A stretch of DNA of 29,174 nt from a virus, in the IMG/VR virus record IMGVR_UViG_3300050821_003139, positions 1 to 29,174 of that record, one strand, 5' to 3'. The notes under the pieces are model-generated. The model ran no database searches, was not told where the DNA came from, and was given only the letters and a program-made list of their open reading frames with translations. Below are positions 7,505-23,120 of the stretch, piece after piece. Position numbers and translations under genes: made by a program. Every line of letters begins with the position of its first letter. The stretch's first letter is position 1.

Positions 7505-7770
7505 TGATGATCGAAGCGCCGGGCTATTGGCGAAACGAGACGACCGGCGTGCTGGCGCCAGCGGTCGAAGCCTATCTGCAACACCGGCTGATGTCCGACG
7601 AGCAGATCGCCGCGATGCGCGCCTATCTGCGCCAGTGGATCATGGCGGGAGACTGGCTCGGGGGCGCTGACATCGACGCGCTGCGCGCCGATATCGACGG
7701 GCTGACAACCCGCGCCGCGCTCGATCGCTGGCTCGACCGCGCGCTCGATATCGGGATCGATCCGCTATGA
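7501..7770 (+). CDS. Small hypothetical protein (89 aa)
   Basis: The protein starts MMMIEAPGYWRNETTGVLAP, continues with a helical segment (AVEAYLQHRLMSDEQIAAMR) and ends RWLDRALDIGIDPL. ATG 7501 overlaps the previous stop (ATGA), and three consecutive ATG codons make the exact start uncertain by up to six bases. The GYWxNETTGVLxPAVxAYL pattern looks like a defined small domain, but I cannot name it. Confidence 0.6.
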   Translation: MMMIEAPGYWRNETTGVLAPAVEAYLQHRLMSDEQIAAMRAYLRQWIMAGDWLGGADIDALRADIDGLTTRAALDRWLDRALDIGIDPL

Positions 7771-8180
7771 GCCGCGGCCTGCCGTTTTTCTACGAGTACG
7801 GGCGTGGTGGCGTGTCGTATCGCTATGTGTGCCATCGCGTTGCAAACGAAAACCGCGTGGTGCGTATCCGCGCGGAACCGGGAACGCCGGAATTCACCGC
7901 GGCCTATGAAGCGGCGATCGATGCGGTCGGCGCACGCGAAAAGCTGATTATGCGATCGCGGCCGACGGAGCCGGACGATCACAACGACGCACGCTGGCTC
8001 GACGTGACCTGGGTCGACGCGTGGCCCTATCGATTGCCCTGCGCAGGCTCGCGGTTCCATCCCGGCTGGTATGTCCGGCGCATCTGCCCGTGCCATTACG
8101 ACCACTTGGTCACGCGCGCCTATGACAGCCGTGCGCAGGCCGAGCGCGTCATGCGGATACTGATCGAGGTGGGAGCATGA
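7767..8180 (+). CDS. Hypothetical protein (137 aa) with an integrase-N-terminus-like segment
   Basis: Residues about 10-51 (YEYGRGGVSYRYVCHR then VRIRAEPGTPEFTAAYEAAI) resemble the short N-terminal segment of many alphaproteobacterial tyrosine integrases, where a basic strand leads into R-x-x-G-x-P-G-x-P/E-E-F-x-A-A-Y. The rest of the protein is different, with a Trp-rich middle (WLDVTWVDAWPYRLPCAG) and a Cys/His cluster (CPCHYDH); no catalytic Arg/His/Tyr set is present, so it is not an integrase. The start overlaps the previous stop (ATGA) and the stop overlaps the next ATG. Function unknown; a DNA-contacting role is only a suggestion. Confidence 0.6.
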   Translation: MSRGLPFFYEYGRGGVSYRYVCHRVANENRVVRIRAEPGTPEFTAAYEAAIDAVGAREKLIMRSRPTEPDDHNDARWLDVTWVDAWPYRLPCAGSRFHPGWYVRRICPCHYDHLVTRAYDSRAQAERVMRILIEVGA

Positions 8181-8503
8181 CCGATCGCCCGACCTATTTC
8201 GTGGTCTCGAAGGTGCTCGGCCGCGAGGTCCCCGCGATCTATTGGGACGAGCTTCCGCGCGCGCCGATCCGCAACCTCGAATATGTGCTGCGCCTCGACG
8301 TGCTGCCCAATGCCGACCGGCTGGTCGCCGCCAGTCTCAAGGAGCTATTTGCGGTCTATCTCGCGCTGAAACGACGCGGGAAATTGCCGCCGCGATACGA
8401 GCCGCCGCGCAGGCCACCGGCCGAGAAACCGGAAATCCTCATGGGTCACCGCGAGAGCCAACGCGAGGTGATCGAACGCGCGCGGCATATCCCCGATGCC
8501 TGA
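8177..8503 (+). CDS. Hypothetical protein (108 aa)
   Basis: This 108-residue protein begins MTDRPTYFVVSKVLGREVPA, has a helical centre (RLVAASLKELFAVYLALKRR) and a proline/arginine-rich section (PPRYEPPRRPPAEKPE) before a last helix. The ATG overlaps the stop of the preceding gene. The Pro/Arg linker separates two short ordered parts. I recognise no family. Confidence 0.6.
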   Translation: MTDRPTYFVVSKVLGREVPAIYWDELPRAPIRNLEYVLRLDVLPNADRLVAASLKELFAVYLALKRRGKLPPRYEPPRRPPAEKPEILMGHRESQREVIERARHIPDA

Positions 8504-8735
8504 ACACCCCGATATAGTCATCGAACTCTTCGCGATGTTCGCGGCCCGCCTCAGTCGCTACGGGCTGGAGCCGGACCACCCGGCCGTTGGTGAAGTCGTC
8601 ACGGTGATGCTGGGGGCGTACTACGCGGGGCGCGGCCCCAGCGCGAGCTTGCGGGCGGAACTGCTCGATCGGGCAGCCACGGAGATGGACGATGCTGAGC
8701 TGCGGCTGAAGAGGCGCGGCCTTGTTCCCGAGTGA
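8496..8735 (+). CDS. Small helical hypothetical protein (79 aa)
   Basis: This 79-residue protein (start MPEHPDIVIELFAMFAARLS, end LRLKRRGLVPE) overlaps the previous gene by eight bases. It reads as three helices with a Gly/Ala turn (LGAYYAGRGPSASLRAE). The stop is followed, in overlapping frames, by the start region of the Acb2-like gene. No family recognised and no function assigned. Confidence 0.55.
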   Translation: MPEHPDIVIELFAMFAARLSRYGLEPDHPAVGEVVTVMLGAYYAGRGPSASLRAELLDRAATEMDDAELRLKRRGLVPE

Positions 8736-8862
8736 CGATGATGTCTTCACCTTCATCGCGCCGTGGGGGCTGTTGGCGCTGTGGTTGGCCTGGGTCTTTG
8801 CCGATCGCACGCCGCTACTCGACCAATCGCGCTTACTGGCAATTCGTAACGGAGGATTGAGC
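8722..8862 (+). other. In-frame membrane-segment extension upstream of the Acb2-like gene
   Basis: The frame of the gene at 8863 is open upstream to TTG 8722, which is preceded by GAAGAGG at seven bases. The extra 47 residues contain a hydrophobic stretch (FTFIAPWGLLALWLAWVFA) and would make a 116-residue membrane-anchored form of the downstream protein. A competing 42-residue frame from GTG 8732, overlapping the previous TGA, ends just before ATG 8863 but looks less protein-like. Either the long form is made, or both forms are made, or this is a leader; the sequence does not decide. Confidence 0.4.
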
Positions 8863-9072
8863 ATGGATGACACCGACCCGATGCTGCAGTTTTTTGCCTT
8901 CGCCCATTTGCGCGACGACTTGCAAGTCGTCAGTCGGCCGTTTGGCGATCTTGCCGACTGGCTGGCGCAGACGCTGCCGCGCAACCCGGAACGGACGGTC
9001 GCGCTGCGCAAGTTGCTCGAAGCGAAGGACTGTGCGGTTCGCGCCAAACTCTACATCCCGACCCCGCCATGA
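8863..9072 (+). CDS. Acb2/Tad1-hairpin-like protein (putative cyclic-nucleotide sponge)
   Basis: The 69-residue protein reads as two or three helices. It opens with a LQFFAFAHL motif, then LQVVSRPFGDLADWLA, then the loop LPRNPERTVALRKLLEAKD and a final CAVRAKL helix. The order 'F-x-Y/F-x-H-L ... P-x-x-x-E-R-T-x-A-x-x-K-L-x-E-A-K-x-x-A-V-R' matches my memory of the Acb2/Tad1 hairpin family, in which small helical proteins form oligomers that bind cyclic oligonucleotides or gcADPR signals and so block CBASS or Thoeris defence. ATG 8863 is supported by GGAGGA nine bases upstream; a longer TTG-started form is possible. Family assignment is from motif recall only and ligand binding is inferred. 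Confidence 0.6.
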   Translation: MDDTDPMLQFFAFAHLRDDLQVVSRPFGDLADWLAQTLPRNPERTVALRKLLEAKDCAVRAKLYIPTPP

Positions 9073-9131
9073 TCGCGCAACATGGCGGGTAAATACTCCA
9101 CCGCGCACAAGTGTCACTAAAGGAGCACACG

Positions 9132-9623
9132 ATGGCTGAACAACTCTATTACGGTCACCTCGTGCCGGTTGAACGACCGGAGCGACCGGACCGTCCGGCC
9201 GGCGGCTGGGGCGGAAGGCCACCCGATCGGCCGCATCCCGGCGAACCGGACCATCCCGAGCACGGTCTACCGCCAGGGATCGGTCACCCGCTGCCGCCCG
9301 ATCCCCCGGGTGTCTGGCCGCCGCTTGAGGGGCCGTCCTTTCCGATCTTCCCGGTGCCGCCGGGCGGTGAGGGCGAAGGGCCGTGGGAGCCGGGCGAGGT
9401 CTGGCCGCCGATCCGGCCGCCGCTCGGTGAGCTGCTGCCGCCGACAGCCGGTCATCCGCTGCCGAAGAACCTCTGCTTTGCCGCCTGCTACCTGACCGGC
9501 TACGGCTGGCGCTGGATCGTCGTCGACCTCAACGCGATCCATCGTCCGGAACCGCCGGCCGGTGGCTGGGTCGGCCGCCCGCCAGACACCCGCCCGCTGC
9601 CGCCACGCGAGCCGAAAGTCTAA
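9132..9623 (+). CDS. Proline/glycine-rich protein with duplicated end motif
   Basis: This 163-residue protein is very rich in Pro, Gly and Trp (PPG, WPP, HPLP), so most of it is probably extended or disordered. A short ordered-looking island, NLCFAACYLTGYGWRWIVVD, lies near residue 120. The motif PAGGWxGRPPD occurs twice, near residue 22 and near residue 148, so the ends look duplicated. AAGGAG lies eight bases upstream of ATG 9132. It is the last gene before the terminator at 9642. I recall similar Pro-rich proteins in Rhizobiales phages; their function is not known to me, and a structural or surface role is only a guess. Confidence 0.7.
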   Translation: MAEQLYYGHLVPVERPERPDRPAGGWGGRPPDRPHPGEPDHPEHGLPPGIGHPLPPDPPGVWPPLEGPSFPIFPVPPGGEGEGPWEPGEVWPPIRPPLGELLPPTAGHPLPKNLCFAACYLTGYGWRWIVVDLNAIHRPEPPAGGWVGRPPDTRPLPPREPKV

Positions 9624-12966: not shown

Positions 12967-14384
12967 TGCTCGGCGGCGCGATCCTCACCCGCATGACCAA
13001 TTGGGTGCAGCGCCAGCTCGGCGGTATCGGTGGCGTCAATCTGCGCCTGGTCTGGCCCGAACACTCGTGGCAATCGGGCCGCGACATGCCCGGCGCCGGA
13101 TTGGGCGGGCTCAGCTTCCCGCCGCTCTACACCGCGATCGACGTCATTTCGAGCGACATTGCGCGATTGCCGCTACGCCACTGGCGCGATGACGGCGAGA
13201 GCCGCAACGAGGTCCGCGATTCCTGGGCGGTCTCGGTGCTCGACGACCCGAACGACTACCAGACCGGGTTCGACCTCATCAAACAGCTCACGGCCTCGGT
13301 GCTCTATCGCGGCAACGGCTACCTCTACCCGATCCGCAACGGGCGCCACCAGATCGAGAAATTGCACTGCCTTTTTCCCGACTATGTCTGGGTGAGCCGG
13401 CTGAGCGGTCAGGCCGATTACTTCTACCAGGTCGGCCCGCAACCGCTCGCCGATCTCGACACCACGGTGATGGTCCCGCCGCGCAATATGTTTCACCACC
13501 GGATTTTGACCCTCAACGATCCGCTGTTTGGTGTTTCGCCGCTAATCGCCGCCGCCGCCAGCTGCAGCGCCGGGCTGGCGATCCTGCGCAGCTCCGACCG
13601 GTTCTTTAACCGCATGGCCCGGCCGAGCGGCGTCTTGTCGACCGACAAATTGCTCGACGAGAAAGCGGCCGAGCGGGTCAAGGAACGGTTTCAGCGGCTC
13701 TTTTCCGGCGAGGAAGGCGCTGGCGACGTCGCGGTGCTCGAACAGGGTCTCAAATGGGAAGCGCTGACGATGAGCGCGGTCGACGCGCAACTGATCGAGC
13801 AATTGCGCTGGACCGTCGAGGATGTCGCGCGGGTCTACCGCGTGCCGGGGTTCATGATCGGCGACCTGAAAAACGTCAGCTACAACTCGTCGGAACAGCT
13901 CACCCGGCAATACTGGAACGGCTGCCTATCGTCGCATATGCGCGCGCTCGAACAGCGCCTGTCGCAATTTTTCGGCATGGACGGCCGCACCGAATATCTC
14001 GAATTCGACCTCGACCAGATGTTCCGCGCCGAGCTTACCCAGCGCACCGAGGCGCTAACCAAATCGGTGCAAGGCGGCTTGCGTACTCCGAACGAGGCGC
14101 GCCGCATCGAGGGCCTCAACGCGCTTCCCGGCGGCGATCAAATCTTCATGCAGCAGCAGATGGTCCCGGTCGAGCAATTGGCGAGCCGCACCGATCTCAA
14201 CCCGAAACCGCAGCCGATGCCGGCGCAGACCCCGCCGCAACGCGAATTGCTGCCGCCGGCGCCGCCGCTCAACACCACCGAACTCGCCGACGCCTTGATG
14301 GCCGAGGTCTTCGGCGGCGCACCGCCGCCGCGCTTACCACCGCGACAACTCACCTATGGACGGAGCGGACGGACCTATCACTGA
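12966..14384 (+). CDS. HK97-type portal protein
   Basis: This 472-residue protein forms the dodecameric DNA entry ring. Typical portal features are present in order: an N-terminal clip with PPLYTAIDVISSDIARLPL, SVLYRGNGYLYPIRNG, then DRFFNRMARPSGVLSTD, the RFQRLFSGEEGAGDVAVLEQG wing/stem region, and the ARVYRVPGFMIGDLKNVSYN helix-loop followed by YWNGCLSSHMRALEQRLS. A proline-rich tail ends the protein. ATG 12966 is used; ATG 12993 is an alternative. Unusually, the portal comes after the protease and capsid genes; the common HK97 order is portal, protease, capsid. Confidence 0.92.
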   Translation: MLGGAILTRMTNWVQRQLGGIGGVNLRLVWPEHSWQSGRDMPGAGLGGLSFPPLYTAIDVISSDIARLPLRHWRDDGESRNEVRDSWAVSVLDDPNDYQTGFDLIKQLTASVLYRGNGYLYPIRNGRHQIEKLHCLFPDYVWVSRLSGQADYFYQVGPQPLADLDTTVMVPPRNMFHHRILTLNDPLFGVSPLIAAAASCSAGLAILRSSDRFFNRMARPSGVLSTDKLLDEKAAERVKERFQRLFSGEEGAGDVAVLEQGLKWEALTMSAVDAQLIEQLRWTVEDVARVYRVPGFMIGDLKNVSYNSSEQLTRQYWNGCLSSHMRALEQRLSQFFGMDGRTEYLEFDLDQMFRAELTQRTEALTKSVQGGLRTPNEARRIEGLNALPGGDQIFMQQQMVPVEQLASRTDLNPKPQPMPAQTPPQRELLPPAPPLNTTELADALMAEVFGGAPPPRLPPRQLTYGRSGRTYH

Positions 14385-17300
14385 CCTCGTCGGCGCGATC
14401 GCGCCGGTCCTGACCCGGCTGCGCGCCGAGGTCGACGAGCGCCTCGCCGCGCTCGAGGCGGAGTTTGGCGCGCGCATGGTCGAGGCGACCGAACGGATGC
14501 GCGAGCTCGTCGACGCCAATCTGCGGCGCGCCGAGGATGCGATGCGCCAAAGCGCCGAGGCGGTCCGGCAACTCGCCGCCGAGGTCACCAGCGAAACCCA
14601 CGCGATCCCCGATCGCATCATTCAGCAAACCGCGCTGATCCCGCGGCCGCGCGACGGCAAGGACGGCACCCTGCCGGCGGCCGGTCTCTACATTCCGGGG
14701 AGGGTCTATGACGCCGGTGAGTGCGTTACGGCGCATGGTGGGCTTTGGCAGGCGGTCCAACGCACCGACACCGCGCCCGGCCCCGACGATCGCGCCTGGC
14801 GCGTCCTCGCCGATGGTACCGAAAGCTATGTCGGCGAAGTTGACGACGACGACCCGCGTGCCTTTTCCCTCAGTAACCGGCTTTCCTCGGGGACCGTCCA
14901 CGAGGCCGCGTTCCGCCTCGCGGTTCCGCTTCATCGCGGCCATTATCAATCGGATACGACCTACGAGTTAAACGATGTCGTCGCGCTCGACGGGTCGAGC
15001 TGGATATGCGTCGTCGATCTAGCCGCGACGGCGCCGCCCTCGGCCGAATGGAAACTGGCCGCACAGCGCGGCGGGCGCGGCAAGACCGGCCCGCGCGGCG
15101 AGCGCGGGGAACGCGGCGAACGGGGATCGCCGGGCGCTCAAGGCGAGCCGGGGATCGGCCAGAAAGGCGATCCAGGACCACCCGGTGCTGGCCTCGCTGG
15201 CTTCGAGGAGGTCGGTCCGGGGGTCATCCGGCTGCAGTACGACGATGGCGACGTCTCCCCGCCGATCGCGCTGCCGGGGATGCGCTTTATCGGCGTCTAC
15301 ACCCCCGGCGAGACCTACGACCGGGGCGACCTGGTACGCTTTGGCTATCACCTGTTTGTCTGCCAATCGCGCACCGACAGCATGCCCACGGCGACCAGCG
15401 AAGAATGGGCGCTGCTCATCCCCGGCAACGAGCCGGGTCCGGCCGGCGGCACCGCGCAAGTGCCGCTTCGCTTCATCGGGCTCTGGCAAGTCGCCGCCAA
15501 TAACCCCGACCTGATCGGCAACACGAATTTCGATCCCGGCGATCTCTTTACTTGCGTGACCACCGATCCCGCCCTGCCCGAGATCGCACCCGTCGGCGTC
15601 CCCGGCATCGCGGGTGAGTCGATCACCAACGGCGACTGGATCATCTGGAACGGCGACAGCGATAGCTGGAATCACTTCACCGGCCACGGGCTCACCCGGC
15701 CCGAGGCCGACACGCTCTACGTCTTCAAGTCCGGCGACACGATGACCGGCGATCTGCATGTTACCGTTCCGCCCGTTGTTCCCGGTCTAGCGGTCGGCGA
15801 GGTGGTTCTTACCGGTGCGCTCGGCGACGCCGCGATCGCTTTGCGCGGCTTTGGTAGTTCAGCAGTGCGCTTTGAGGCGGATCAACTCCACCGCTGGGTG
15901 ATCGGCACCACCGGCCTACTGCAAGGCAACTATGATCTCAGCTTTATCCGTTATGACGCGGCCGGCGTTCGGGCGGATGTGCCGATCCGGTTTCAGGCGA
16001 GCGACGGCGCGCTGCAGATCAATCACTCGGTCTTTATGCATAAGGAGGGCGATCAGAGCGGCGCCGCACCGCCGATCATTTGGGCCGATGATCTCGGCGG
16101 CCTTGCGCGGATTTACGCTACCCGATCGGACGTCGTTAACGGGCCGAGCCTCCTTTTCCGGGTCGAGAATCCCGGCGTGCTACAGGGTGCCGAGACGCTC
16201 ATGCGCTCGCGCCCGCCGGACGCACTGGGCGAGCCGCCGCATCTCGAATTGAGTATCGATCCAGTCGAGCCGCAGGACGCGGCGACCAAACGCTACGTCG
16301 ACAACATCGGCGACTCGCTCGTCGACTTCGTGCGCAAGGCCGGCGACGAAATGACCGGCTCGCTCAGCATTACCGGCAATAGCCGCCTGCTGATCCAATC
16401 GATCTTTGGGCCAAATCTGGGCACCGGCACGATCCGGCTGGAAGGCGGCCAAGCGAACACGATCCAGTTTGCCGACGCCGGCGGGATGCGCTGGCAATTC
16501 CTTGAGCAACACTACGTGTCGGCTTCGGGGCCGCTTGACGATTTTGTCCTGATCAGGGGCGCGGCTCCGGATACCATATCGCTGATCGCGTCATGGGCCG
16601 ATGGTCACATCGCGCTGCGCCAGCCCTCGACGATGACCGGCGATCCCATCGGCGCCGACGATCTCACGCGCAAGGCCTATGTCGATCAGGCCGTGGCTGG
16701 CGCCGTGCCGGAACCGATCGGCCCCGGCCTCTGGGGCCGTACCGCACTCGGCGTATGGGAACGCTCGGTCGCGGTCAGCGGCGACACGATGACAGGCGGA
16801 CTGACGATCAATGGAGGGCCGCTCCGGCTGGGTGGTACGAATCCGCTAGGTGGCGGCTGGTCGCAAGTCGATTTGCATGGCGACGACGGCTCAAGGATTT
16901 ACTTCCACACAGCCGACCAAAGCCGTTGGCTGATGTCTAATATGAGTTTAGGGGTGTTACCAAATCTCGACGCCAACGACTTCGCGATTGCACGTACAGA
17001 TACGGTCGGCAACCCCCAATACAGCGCCCTCACGCTACGCTACACCGATGGCGCGTTGCTGGTGCGGGATGTTGCGGGTCAACGGTTTACCACAAGTGCC
17101 GGCGATCCGGTCGACGCCGACGATCTCGCGCGCAAGGCCTATGTCGATCGCCTGGTAACCGGCGGCGCCCTGGTGATCGGGATCTTCGAGGCGCCAACCG
17201 ATAGCTGTCATTACAACCCGACGACCGGCTTTCCGGATGGTCCGCTCGTGCCGGCCGCCGATGCCGGCGAGGGCCGTTATCTGGTCTGCGACGAAGCCGG

Positions 17301-19443
17301 AATCATGCCGCCCGGTAGCGAAGCCGCCGGCCTCGATTTTGCCGTTGGCGACTGGGTGTTGTCGAACGGCACTGACTGGATTCGCTTGCGCGTCGGCGCC
17401 GCCGGGGCGACCGCGCGCGGCGTCTCGCTGGTCCCGCCGATCTTCGGCGCCGACAACGTGCAGGACGGCCTGCAAGCCGCCGAAACCGCGCTTGGCGATT
17501 ATCTGCCGCTCGCCGGCGGAACCTTGACCGGAGCGCTGACGCTGTCCGGCGATCCGCTCGCCGCGCTCGAAGCGGTTCCGCGCCGCTATGTCGACGCGCG
17601 CGGCCTCTTCCCCTGGACGACGACAGCGAACTACACCGCGGGTCAAGCGGTGCTCTACGACAATCGCTCATTCCGGACGCTGGTGGCGATCGACAACGCG
17701 CCGGCCACCCCGGATTTTTCGACGATCCAGCCGCTCGGCTACGGCCAAAGCGATTACTGGCATGGCGATCGCCCTACCGCGAATTGGGCGGTGGGCAATT
17801 GGGTGCATATCTGCACCCTGCCGGCTTACGGCACCTACAACGTGCAAATCTCTGATCTGCACACCGGTCAAGACTCGTCGATGACGATCGCGGTCGTTAC
17901 CTCCTTTAACCAGGCATCGGCGACTTTAGCGGCGGCGCATCAAGGCGTCGGGTCATGGAGAGAGTTGCGGCTGTCGCAGACCGCAGCTGGTCAGCCGATA
18001 CGGCTCGAATTGCAGATCGCCGCGGTCGGCGCTAGCCAAAATTTCAAGATCATGGTGACCGGCGAGACCCGCGGCCTGACCGCCAATCAAGTCGCGATCC
18101 TGAAACCGCCGGTCGCGATCGCTGGTGGTTTGTCACTCGGCGGCACCATGCTCGCCGCCATCAGAGATTTGCAGGAAGCCGGCTTTGCGGTCAGCAATGC
18201 GATGATCGTCAGCAACGGCAACTTCCTCAAGTTCTACCACACGCAACCGACCGACGCGAATGACGGCCGGATCGGCGCGCGCGTGTTCGGTCGCGGCCTC
18301 AATCTCATCGGTGTCGCTACCGAGCCGGCACCCGACAATTTCCGCATTATCCGGCTTTGGGGCCAGGTCGAGATGGGGCAAGCGTTTAGCTTTGTCACCG
18401 ATTTCGACGGTCACGGGCTGGTCACATTTAGCGGCGGCCGGTTCTACAAGGCGACCGGCAGCGGCATGGTCATCCGCTGTTCAAGCGGCAATCAACAGCC
18501 GCAGATCGAGAACAACGACGGCGGCAACCGTCGCGCCATCATCGATGCCGCCACCAATCAGACCATTGGCGGCGTGAAGTCGTTTTCGAGCGGGATCAAC
18601 TTCGGCTCGGTAGCGCAGGCCGACGCCCGCGACGTCTCGCGGCACATTGCCTTGTGGGGCGGCGGCACGGCCGGGTTTGGGCTGAATATCACCGGCGGGC
18701 ATCTCAATCTCATCGCCGCCGCCAATGCGACCAACCGCATCGGGTTTATGGCCGGTACCAGCACCACACCGATCGCGGAAATTCACAATGGTGGGCTGCA
18801 ACTGCTCAGCAACGTGCTGAAGACGATCTCATTCACCCGCAGCGACAACACGCAGCGCTGGTGGATTGACACCGGCAACGACGCCGACGACGTGCTGCGG
18901 ATCGGCGCGCGCACCAATGCCGGTACGAACGGCACGATAATGAGTATCAACCGGCAAAGCTGGATGGTCTCAGTTTGGGGCGATCCGACCGGCGATCTCG
19001 ACGTCGCGACCAAGCGCTACGTCGACACCCGCCGTGGAATAACCCGCGTTATCGAACCAGGCGGGACAGCGATCACTCAGAATTGGATCACGCTATGGTC
19101 GGGGACGTTCAGTATTCCGCGCGGTGGTAATTCATTCGTTTCCATCATCATTGTTCCGGGTTTGTCATCGACCGCAGGAACCGGCAGCAGTTGGTTATTT
19201 CAATGGGGCGTGAACGGTAGCGTTGCCCGCGTGCGGCAGAGTCTACATCAAAAAACCACCGCCATTGCGCAGGATATCAGCGGCGGTCAGATCGCGTTCA
19301 CTGCGGCGGTCTCTGGCACCAATCCAACGATCTCGGTGCAGGTCCGCAGTCTGTCCGGTCCGGCGATCACGATGATCGGCGTCGGCACTGGATTCGACGA
19401 TCATCGCACGCAGATTTATCTATCCGACCAGGGGCCGCAGTAG
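14356..19443 (+). CDS. Giant fibre-like protein with collagen-type repeats (1695 aa)
   Basis: This 1695-residue protein starts inside the portal gene (29-base overlap). It has an N-terminal coiled coil (about 10-85); a GGLWQA-type module with PLHRGHY; a collagen-like Gly-X-Y stretch (about 236-278); a VGPGVIRLQYDDGD and [20 protein letters not shown] module that looks like a carbohydrate-binding beta domain; then a long shaft with SGDTMTGxL motifs and at least five KxYVD-type hinges (near 645, 770, 925, 1075 and 1550). The C-terminal 120 residues (WSGTFSIPRGGNSFVS... to YLSDQGPQ) form a beta-rich tip. This is fibre architecture, probably trimeric and involved in surface or receptor binding. 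It is the first of three tandem relatives. A head-fibre, collar-fibre or tail-fibre location cannot be decided from sequence. Confidence 0.8.
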   Translation: MDGADGPITDLVGAIAPVLTRLRAEVDERLAALEAEFGARMVEATERMRELVDANLRRAEDAMRQSAEAVRQLAAEVTSETHAIPDRIIQQTALIPRPRDGKDGTLPAAGLYIPGRVYDAGECVTAHGGLWQAVQRTDTAPGPDDRAWRVLADGTESYVGEVDDDDPRAFSLSNRLSSGTVHEAAFRLAVPLHRGHYQSDTTYELNDVVALDGSSWICVVDLAATAPPSAEWKLAAQRGGRGKTGPRGERGERGERGSPGAQGEPGIGQKGDPGPPGAGLAGFEEVGPGVIRLQYDDGDVSPPIALPGMRFIGVYTPGETYDRGDLVRFGYHLFVCQSRTDSMPTATSEEWALLIPGNEPGPAGGTAQVPLRFIGLWQVAANNPDLIGNTNFDPGDLFTCVTTDPALPEIAPVGVPGIAGESITNGDWIIWNGDSDSWNHFTGHGLTRPEADTLYVFKSGDTMTGDLHVTVPPVVPGLAVGEVVLTGALGDAAIALRGFGSSAVRFEADQLHRWVIGTTGLLQGNYDLSFIRYDAAGVRADVPIRFQASDGALQINHSVFMHKEGDQSGAAPPIIWADDLGGLARIYATRSDVVNGPSLLFRVENPGVLQGAETLMRSRPPDALGEPPHLELSIDPVEPQDAATKRYVDNIGDSLVDFVRKAGDEMTGSLSITGNSRLLIQSIFGPNLGTGTIRLEGGQANTIQFADAGGMRWQFLEQHYVSASGPLDDFVLIRGAAPDTISLIASWADGHIALRQPSTMTGDPIGADDLTRKAYVDQAVAGAVPEPIGPGLWGRTALGVWERSVAVSGDTMTGGLTINGGPLRLGGTNPLGGGWSQVDLHGDDGSRIYFHTADQSRWLMSNMSLGVLPNLDANDFAIARTDTVGNPQYSALTLRYTDGALLVRDVAGQRFTTSAGDPVDADDLARKAYVDRLVTGGALVIGIFEAPTDSCHYNPTTGFPDGPLVPAADAGEGRYLVCDEAGIMPPGSEAAGLDFAVGDWVLSNGTDWIRLRVGAAGATARGVSLVPPIFGADNVQDGLQAAETALGDYLPLAGGTLTGALTLSGDPLAALEAVPRRYVDARGLFPWTTTANYTAGQAVLYDNRSFRTLVAIDNAPATPDFSTIQPLGYGQSDYWHGDRPTANWAVGNWVHICTLPAYGTYNVQISDLHTGQDSSMTIAVVTSFNQASATLAAAHQGVGSWRELRLSQTAAGQPIRLELQIAAVGASQNFKIMVTGETRGLTANQVAILKPPVAIAGGLSLGGTMLAAIRDLQEAGFAVSNAMIVSNGNFLKFYHTQPTDANDGRIGARVFGRGLNLIGVATEPAPDNFRIIRLWGQVEMGQAFSFVTDFDGHGLVTFSGGRFYKATGSGMVIRCSSGNQQPQIENNDGGNRRAIIDAATNQTIGGVKSFSSGINFGSVAQADARDVSRHIALWGGGTAGFGLNITGGHLNLIAAANATNRIGFMAGTSTTPIAEIHNGGLQLLSNVLKTISFTRSDNTQRWWIDTGNDADDVLRIGARTNAGTNGTIMSINRQSWMVSVWGDPTGDLDVATKRYVDTRRGITRVIEPGGTAITQNWITLWSGTFSIPRGGNSFVSIIIVPGLSSTAGTGSSWLFQWGVNGSVARVRQSLHQKTTAIAQDISGGQIAFTAAVSGTNPTISVQVRSLSGPAITMIGVGTGFDDHRTQIYLSDQGPQ
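15061..15190 (+). repeat. Collagen-like Gly-X-Y segment in fibre protein A
   Basis: Codons here give successive Gly-X-Y triplets such as GPRGERGERGERGSPG and GQKGDPGPPG, about 14 triplets with a short break. Such repeats in phage fibres form trimeric rigid stalks. The DNA is correspondingly repetitive (GGCGAGCGC-type units), which can cause recombination or assembly errors. Confidence 0.85.
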
Positions 19444-22017
19444 GTGCCTGACGGCCAGTCGCCCGATCTCGCGCGGGTCTTTCGTCACGGCGTCATCTAC
19501 GGCCACGGCATGGTCGTGCGCTACTCGGGCGGGCTCTGGCAGGCGCAGTGCGAGACCCGATCGCCGCCGGGCGCGTCACCGGGCGAGTGGCTGTGCTTGA
19601 CCGATGGCATCCGCCGCATCGTCGCCACCCAAGGGCCGGGTGACGACCCGCGGCTGCATTCGATTATCGTCGGCCTGTCGAGCGGCACCGATATCGATCT
19701 CAAGTTCCGCCTGCCGCTGCCGCTGCACCGCGGCGCCTTCGAATACGGCTCGTTTTACGTCGCCGGCGACGAGGTCGAATATAGCGGCGCGACCTATCGC
19801 GCGATGAATGACTCGCCTGGCGTACCGCCCAACGAAGGTTGGACGCTAGTCTCGGCGCACGGCCCGCGTGGCGACGAGGGACCCTGCGGCATCCAGGGCG
19901 AGCGCGGCGATCGTGGCCCGCGCGGTGATCCCGGCATCCAGGGCGAGCGTGGCGAACGCGGCCCGCGTGGCGAGCGCGGCACCAAGGGCGACCAAGGCGA
20001 ACGCGGCATCGGCATCGGCAAGGTCGAGCTCGTCGGTCCCGGCATCATCCAGCTGCAGTACGAGGACGGCACGCTTAGCCAGCCGCTTGCGGTCTCGGCG
20101 ATCCGCTATGTCGGCGTCTACGTCCCCGGCGACACCTACGCGCGCGGCGATCTCGTCCGCTTCGGCTATCACCTTTGGGTCGCGATGCGCGACACCCAGG
20201 ATGTGCCCAGCACCGCGACCGATGCCTGGGAGCTCTTTCTCACCGGGGTCGATCCTTCGGGCACCGGCGGCACCGCGAGCGGCGGCGGCGGACCCGATCT
20301 GCCGACGCTCGATCAGCGCTATATCCGCAAGGCCGGCGATCTCGTCAGCGGCAACCTGCAATTCGATCAACTGCAAATTGGCGCGCAATGGCCGCTCAAC
20401 GGCGCCGCGATTTACAGCAGCGATAGTGCCGCGTTTCCCGGTTTGATCCTGCGCCGCGGCGCCCTTCAGGACGCGGTCTGGACCGAAAACGATCAAGGGC
20501 TGGGGCGGGTGCGGATGCTGGTCGAGGGCGATGTCCCCGACTTGCCGACCGCCGATGCGCGCTATTTGCGTCTCGCCGGCGACACGATGACCGGCACGAT
20601 CAACTTCCAGGGTACCGACCAGGGCGTGCAATGGAGCCGCAGCGCGGCGATCTACGAGGCGGCGGCTGGCCTCATTATCCGCCAGGCGCAGGGCGATGCC
20701 GGCATCTTTATGGAAAACAGCGCCGGCGGCACGGCCTCGCGGCGGCGGCTCCTGACCGAAGACGACATTGGCGGCGGCGGCGGTCCGTTCCTGCCATTGA
20801 GCGGCGGGCAGATGACTGGTGTGATTAGTTTCGGCCCCGGTCAGGGCTTCGTATTCCAGCCTGGGACCTCAGTAATTTATGAAACGCCCGCGCCGCACGG
20901 TCTCACCTTGCGACAGGCGGCGGGCAATAACGGCGTCTTCATCGAAAATAGCGATGGCGCGGCGGCGTCGCGCAGCCCGATCATCACCCAGGCGACCGGC
21001 GACGACCGCTACCTCAATCTCGATTTCGGCCAGATGCGCGGCAATCTGATCTGCCGGACCGGCGGCGGTCTTACCAATCTTGGGCTCGGGTTCGGCGACC
21101 CCGCGACCGGCTTCTATCGTTCCGGCAACGTCCTCGTCGCGGTCAACGGCGGCGCGTCAATGATGCAATTCATGGTCGGGACGACGGCATTCTTTCTGCC
21201 GATCAACATGGGTAGTCAGCAGATCAATTTTCTCGCCGACGCGACGGCGGCACAAGACGCGCTCAACCTGCGTACCGGCGACGGCCGTTATCTGCGATCC
21301 GGCGTCACCATCGTCACGCCGCCCGGCAACCCCCCCAACGACCTGGGACTGGCGATCGGCGATCCTCAGACCGGTTTTTACCGTGGCGTGACCGGCGGGG
21401 CCGGCGCTGATCTGATCATGGCGGCGGCCGGCTATCCGCTCCTGTTGCTGACCGGCACGCGCGAGGTGGTCTCTACCGGCCCGCTGGGCATGAGCCTACA
21501 GCGCATTTTTAACCTCGGTGCGCCCACTCAGCCCAACGACGCGGTGCCGAAACAGTACGTCGATGACGCGGTTGCTGCGGTCGCGGCGCCGAGCGCCTTC
21601 CGCACCATCGCCTACATGCCAAACGAGCTGTCGCTCACCACCGCGGCGCAGACGTTTCTCGATGTCAATTTCCCGATACCCGCGACCGGGCTGCGCAGCA
21701 TCCTCGTTACGATCACCCCGGCCTTCGCCTCGGCCGATCCGCCGGGCACTCAGCCCTGGCAGGTGATCTATGCGACGGGGCTCATCGCGTTCGAATCGAG
21801 CGTCGTCGCCTACAAGTTCACCAACGACGCGACCTCGTTGCTCCGCTCGACGGCGCAGTTTACCGCTGCGGTCGACGCCACCCCCGGCCAGGTTCGCGTG
21901 CTGCTGACCGCGCGCCTGGCGGCGGCGAGCGGCAGTCTCATCCAGATCGGCGAGGGCGGCACCATCGCGCCGAATATGCGGACCATCGTCACCGTGCAGG
22001 ATTTGGGACCGGTCTAA
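19444..22017 (+). CDS. Fibre-like protein B with collagen-type repeats (857 aa)
   Basis: This 857-residue protein begins at GTG 19444 immediately after the previous stop. It shares with protein A the same order of parts: a GGLWQAQ module, [20 protein letters not shown], a collagen-like stretch (about 140-193), [18 protein letters not shown] and [20 protein letters not shown], then VDPSGTGGT linker. The shaft is shorter and has [21 protein letters not shown]-type motifs and a [14 protein letters not shown] hinge. Its C-terminal 120 residues ([17 protein letters not shown]... to VTVQDLGPV) resemble the tip of protein A. It is a paralogue of A and C, likely trimeric, with a receptor- or surface-binding role inferred. 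Confidence 0.78.
19861..20020 (+). repeat. Collagen-like Gly-X-Y segment in fibre protein B
   Basis: About 17 Gly-X-Y triplets, including [16 protein letters not shown] and a near-exact second [16 protein letters not shown] unit, so the segment seems to have grown by internal duplication. Confidence 0.85.
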
Positions 22018-23120
22018 TGGACGATCGAGAACTCGCGCGCCGCTACCCCGGACAGCTCGATGGCGACGATCCGCTGCCGACTGCACCCGTCGATTTTTCG
22101 GCGCAGGCGCGCCATTGGCGCGAGGGCGAAATCTACGAGCAGCACGCGGCGGTACACTATGCAGGCGGCTTGTGGCAGGCGCGCAACCGCGCCGCCTCGC
22201 GCCCGCCCGGCCGGATCGGCGAATGGCTGCTGATCGCCGATGGCATCCAAACCATCCAGGCATTTCAGACCGTCGGCGACCCGCGCTCGATCGGCCTCGT
22301 CGTCAAGCTCGCCTCGGACCTGATCACGCGCAAGGACCGCACGTTTTTTCTCAATCTGCCGATCCCCATTCATCGCGGCCCCTGGCAGCCCGGTGTCTAT
22401 GTCGAGGGCGACGAGGTCGAGCACGACGGGATCACCTTCCGGGCGCAGCGCACCACGCGCGAGCCGCCGGGTTGCGACGACTGGCTTATTGCTTCGGCGC
22501 GTGGGGAGAAGGGCGACCAGGGGGAACGCGGCGACCAAGGCGAGCGCGGCGACCACGGTGCGCCCGGCGATCGCGGACCACCTGGCGACAAGGGCGACAA
22601 GGGCGATCCCGGCGAGCGCGGCGCCACCGGGCTCGGCATTGCCGGTGTCGAGCCGGTAAAGGGCTACCCTGGCTTGGTGCGCATCGTCCTCGAAGACGGC
22701 ACCATCACCGAACCGATCCCGATCACCTCGATCAACTTTCTCGGCATGTACGAGCCCGGCCGCAATTACCAGTACGGCGACCTGGTGCGGCACGGCTACG
22801 TGCTGTGGATCGCCAACGAGCCGACCGGCGATGTCCCCTCGGTCAATTCACCGGCCTGGCAGGTGTTTCTCCCCGGCGTCGATCCTTCGGGTACGGGCGG
22901 CACCGGTGGCGGTGGCGGGCTCACCGAGGGCCAAGCCGACGCGCGCTATCTGCAGCTCGCCGCCGGCGGCATCGTCGCCGGGCCGGTGCAAATTCTCACC
23001 GTGCCGGTTGTTCCCAACGACGCCGCAAACAAGGCTTATGTCGATGGCCTCATCGCCGGGGTCAACGCCGCGATTGCCGCGCTCGCGCAACGGGTGACCG
23101 ACTTGGAGAACGCGCCTTGA
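22017..23120 (+). CDS. Short fibre-like protein C with collagen-type repeats (367 aa)
   Basis: This 367-residue protein shares one base with the previous stop. It repeats the order of A and B: GGLWQARN module, [20 protein letters not shown], collagen-like stretch (about 163-209), then [35 protein letters not shown] and a [14 protein letters not shown] linker. Instead of a long shaft it ends quickly with [14 protein letters not shown] and a short heptad-like coiled coil ([17 protein letters not shown]), a usual trimerisation end. It has no distal tip domain, so it could be a stalk, whisker or a partner for A and B. It is followed directly by the head-tail connector gene. Confidence 0.78.
22503..22645 (+). 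repeat. Collagen-like Gly-X-Y segment in fibre protein C
   Basis: About 14 Gly-X-Y triplets, including [16 protein letters not shown] and [16 protein letters not shown], in the same relative place as in the two upstream paralogues. Confidence 0.85.

Follow-up and report, generated by a model that had tools for sequence, protein, structure and literature searches.

Description of the locus

The window is the whole stretch of viral DNA analysed, 29,174 nucleotides in length. Candidate hairpin gene at 8863..9072 on the plus strand, encoding 69 amino acids plus a stop codon, with an ATG start. A GGAGG, Shine-Dalgarno-like site (8850..8855, plus strand), a consensus match only, lies a few nucleotides 5' of the ATG at 8863. 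Third-position GC of the frame is 0.77, similar to that of the neighbouring genes. The same frame is also readable, in a longer form, from a TTG at 8722; relatives begin near 8863. The translation contains LQFFAFAHL, then LQVVSRPFGDLA, then LPRNPERTVALRKLLEAKDCAVRA, in the order given in a sequence-only reading of the same DNA. Confirmed as a real gene.

Located upstream of the head protease; head maturation genes follow from about 10463 (assigned by eye). The upstream small ORFs 7767-8180 and 8496-8735 (plus strand) are orphans in a search of 50,697 phage records, and their earlier designation as anti-defence candidates is unsupported. An alphaproteobacterial host, also proposed earlier, was not borne out: the best phage matches of the capsid protein are about 26% identical and belong mostly to enterobacterial phages. 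The ORF directly downstream (9126-9623, plus strand) is very rich in proline and glycine, carries repeated 'RPERPDRPAGGWGGRPPD'-like segments and has no PHROG or Pfam match. Three consecutive large ORFs (14356-19443, 19444-22017 and 22017-23120, plus strand) all contain collagen-like Gly-X-Y runs (GPRGERGERG) between flanking modules that resemble one another, and are apparently paralogous fibre-type proteins.

Predicted structure

Helical protein, in agreement with the sequence-only reading. The AlphaFold2 model (62 sequences) has a mean pLDDT of 93.7 and a pTM of 0.78, supporting a predicted fold of one short and two long antiparallel helices. Short N-terminal helix at residues 6-11 (8878..8895, plus strand), containing the invariant F11 and followed by the invariant H15-L16. 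First long helix at residues 18-37 (8914..8973, plus strand). Second long helix at residues 42-63 (8986..9051, plus strand), bearing the signature ALRKLLEAKDxAVRA. This is the layout of the protomer of Acb2 (p26 gp24; T4 Vs.4; PF24729), likewise a small phage protein with one short N-terminal and two long antiparallel helices (PMC12043709, PMC10419184); the interhelix loop is shorter in the 69-aa protein than in Acb2.

A Foldseek search against viral models lists members of the protein's own family first; below them come many proteins with the name 'Acb2/Tad1 hairpin domain-containing', which make up about 10 of the top 22 matches. Against the PDB, Foldseek retrieved neither Acb2 nor Tad1 and nothing significant with the 69-aa protein model; the fold matches obtained there (Foldseek/VIA-align) were common helical bundles alone, with Z ≤6, and were discarded. 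In a control, the model of a PF24729-type protein had Vs.4 and Acb2 as its top PDB matches, followed by Tad1. Since the control finds Acb2 and the window model does not, the window family has probably diverged more from Acb2 than typical PF24729 proteins have.

Family, distribution and conservation

Direct member, by score, of phrog_1761 (6e-27) and phrog_5120 (7e-19), from which it does not differ and which so far carry neither an assigned function nor a functional name. The family is supported by relatives in 313 of 50,697 phage records (tblastn, best E 2e-22), in at least 579 viral contigs (best E 4e-28) and in 195 genome contigs of Pseudomonadota, Actinomycetota, Bacteroidota, Planctomycetota and other phyla. 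Plasmids hold relatives in just 24 of 72,556 records, and by these counts the family is phage-centred. Close relatives of Acb2 occupy 220 records of the same phage collection, against the 313 of this family.

Strongly conserved motifs are QFFxYxHL and ALRKLLEAKDxAVRA. Residues F11, H15, L16, R49-K50-L51-L52-E53-A54-K55 and R60 are invariant or nearly so across 138 alignment rows; the apparent invariance of the second helix arises in part because the search patterns contained RKLLEAKD, the pattern by which the genome contig set was retrieved, so that conservation of that stretch is inflated. LRKLLE[AS]KDxxVR is kept in six phage members collected by tblastn without that pattern.

Some relatives carry additional N-terminal segments. 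In the member from Ochrobactrum phage OH (L304, 765-1133), annotated as anti-TRAP, the segment is zinc-finger-like (CPACGGTG...CNICEGHG). Other segments are present in L033 and L216, that of L216 being beta-rich in appearance. A Tad1-like two-domain form, suspected from L216, was rejected: among the viral contigs just two relatives of the L216 N-terminal segment were detected, and one of these lacks the hairpin.

Relationship to the Acb2/Tad1 hairpin superfamily

No match to PF24729, the Pfam model of the Acb2/Tad1 hairpin, is given by the 69-aa protein or by any of 61 relatives, even at E 10; the profile match expected under the earlier identification is thus missing. The curated Pfam cut-off is 27 bits, and the positive controls T4 Vs.4 and Pseudomonas phage p26 reach 71 and 66 bits, respectively. 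Scans of the 69-aa protein against Pfam, NCBIfam and PADLOC gave no meaningful match, weak similarities to DPS and TetR_C_11 being taken as chance helical resemblance. Searches of the PDB with the single sequence and with the profile of the 69-aa protein returned no Acb2 and no Tad1. Direct scores are weak, 2.5 bits for T4 Vs.4 and 1.3 bits for p26, with 4/200 and 5/200 shuffles equally high. Comparison by hhalign with Vs.4 or p26 alone was unconvincing, and a wider sequence set was required.

Homology to the wider superfamily is detectable through intermediates. The 69-aa protein (E 0.0017) and its relatives (5e-4 to 0.02) match phrog_1454, which holds the PF24729 proteins of phages Saintus, ISF9 and 1706 (E 1e-17 to 2e-24) and also attracts T4 Vs.4/Acb2 (7e-4). 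The reciprocal match of Saintus gp45 to phrog_1761 is weak (0.039) and falls in the same register. When stop-to-stop frames were scored with the family profile, the PF24729 protein ranked first of 747 in Saintus, first of 378 in 1706 and second of 734 in ISF9. Scored singly, these three proteins, which were picked from the Foldseek list and are neither a random nor an unbiased sample, reached 9.0 to 13.2 bits; the maximum among about 9,260 unrelated ORFs used as decoys was 8.1 bits.

PDB entry 9PTQ, 'Acb2 homolog 43', located via a wide PF24729-type profile, is the closest solved relative by profile. Its score against the profile of the family, 12.8 bits, is reached by 0 of 1974 shuffles (maximum 8.1), and its gapless alignment with LPRNPERTVALRKLLEAKDCAVRA has 10 of 24 positions identical. 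In the part seen, 9PTQ and its mycobacteriophage relatives differ from the family in lacking the QFFxYxHL segment; the phage hosts differ as well. A literature search found no paper on 9PTQ. Its relative StellaBean gp101 (Mycobacterium phage; L312, 493-690) is annotated as 'cyclic nucleotide sequestering protein', the listed close relatives being called hypothetical. As a sole link, StellaBean gp101 was set aside as too weak (5.5 bits with the family profile, 6/967 shuffles equally high).

Profile-profile comparison gave a P of 0.0059 and a probability of 6%; column-shuffled decoys reached the real score in 0/150 and 1/150 cases. A single register is found throughout, nPERtvALRKLLEAKDcAVRa aligning with sREtSiAkTKleEAvMWAvr. 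Resemblance of short amphipathic hairpins, arising without common ancestry, is an improbable explanation of these results. It would suit the low profile-profile probability, the commonness and shortness of helical hairpins, and the failure of Pfam and of PDB fold searches to give a match; against it, decoys from real ORFs always score below the PF24729 proteins of Saintus and 1706 and below 9PTQ, and several routes converge on one register. Distant homology to the Acb2/Tad1 hairpin superfamily, with a consistent register and outside the PF24729 criterion of Pfam, is supported. Of the earlier identification as an Acb2/Tad1-like protein, superfamily membership at a distance is supported by sensitive profiles, intermediate sequences and structure search; a match to PF24729 itself is missing.

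Genomic context of relatives

When shadows of the gene on the opposite strand or in overlapping frames are excluded, no neighbour is shared by more than a few of the 160 loci compared. Among large neighbours, the commonest PHROG accounts for 4 of 75 downstream and 3 of 75 upstream. Neighbour families are scattered over integrase, terminase, tail, recombination and nuclease functions. The want of a conserved neighbour fits a stand-alone, self-sufficient gene.

In Vibrio phage martha 12B12 the family member sits between the terminase subunits, an arrangement that suggests an auxiliary role in packaging DNA or assembling heads. Some neighbour clusters are terminase-like, and in the window itself head maturation genes follow the 69-aa gene. 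Such a role is nevertheless very improbable: terminase families are a small minority of the 75 + 75 neighbours, beside integrases, exonucleases, tail sheath proteins, methyltransferases and HNH nucleases, and relatives lie in unrelated modules, e.g. in jumbo phages and replication regions. The neighbour counts (75 downstream and 75 upstream) speak against an obligate packaging component, and the idea was set aside on them.

Comparison with characterised sponges

Shared with Acb2 are an aromatic residue by the N-terminal segment (Y/F-x-x-L) and the last-helix pattern A....[LE]....A..RA, in gapless register. The family differs in having its own signature, QFFxYxHLPxxLQxVSxPF..LA..LPxNPERxxALRKLLEAKDxAVRA. 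Ligand contacts of Acb2 are presumably Y11 and K26, with R67 for trinucleotides. In a distant, hand-made gapless mapping these fall on F/Y13 (Y11), S24 (K26) and P42 beside E43-R44 (R67), so that the letters of K26 and R67 are not kept in the 69-aa protein. Tad1 (CbTad1) shares the C-terminal two-helix hairpin, the superfamily (it is named in PF24729) and the hexamer logic; the 69-aa protein, all-helical, differs in lacking the N-terminal antiparallel beta-sheet domain.

Proposed function

Putative divergent, stand-alone hairpin protein of the Acb2/Tad1 type, which, with a likelihood put at about one half, acts as a homo-oligomer sequestering a nucleotide second messenger. By analogy with Acb2, the protein would form a small homo-oligomer, possibly a hexamer. 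Composite pockets may be lined by the N-terminal aromatic/His segment F10-F11-x-F/Y-x-H15-L16 and by R49, K50, E53, K55, D56 and R60 of the charged C-terminal helix. The pockets would bind a nucleotide second messenger of CBASS, Thoeris or a related defence and sequester it without degradation. Signal sponging, argued from this analogy, is given roughly even chances.

A fast-evolving anti-defence gene would not usually be conserved so strongly across many phyla, which counts against a sponge. The near-invariance of the second helix over many phyla, more constant than an arms-race gene would suggest, leaves room for a superfamily oligomer with a conserved housekeeping role in the phage, such as binding of a host protein, a nucleic acid or a common nucleotide. 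Such a role, for which the probability is well under one half, would also accord with the presumed Acb2 contact residues not being kept and with the fused N-terminal segments, zinc-finger-like in L304 and beta-rich-looking in L216. On the other side, there is no conserved genomic partner, the invariance is partly an effect of the RKLLEAKD search pattern, and the superfamily structures returned by the PDB search are Acb2, one Acb2 homolog and Tad1, of which Acb2 and Tad1 are characterised sponges (PMC12043709).

A sponge function would mean that current annotation misses an anti-signalling protein in hundreds of phages across many bacterial phyla, because the Pfam hairpin model does not extend to the family. 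More tentatively, the large family may be a separate sponge class with a different ligand pocket, possibly for a signal that Acb2 and Tad1 do not sequester; this is a minority expectation. The family would be a new, unannotated branch of the Acb2/Tad1 kind, and an unpublished survey behind 9PTQ might already cover it. The 69-aa protein is a compact, highly conserved target, the ligand of which is directly testable.

In one bacterial genome, that of Falsigemmobacter intermedius, a window-family member occurs together with a PF24729 protein, each on its own contig (L207 and L284).
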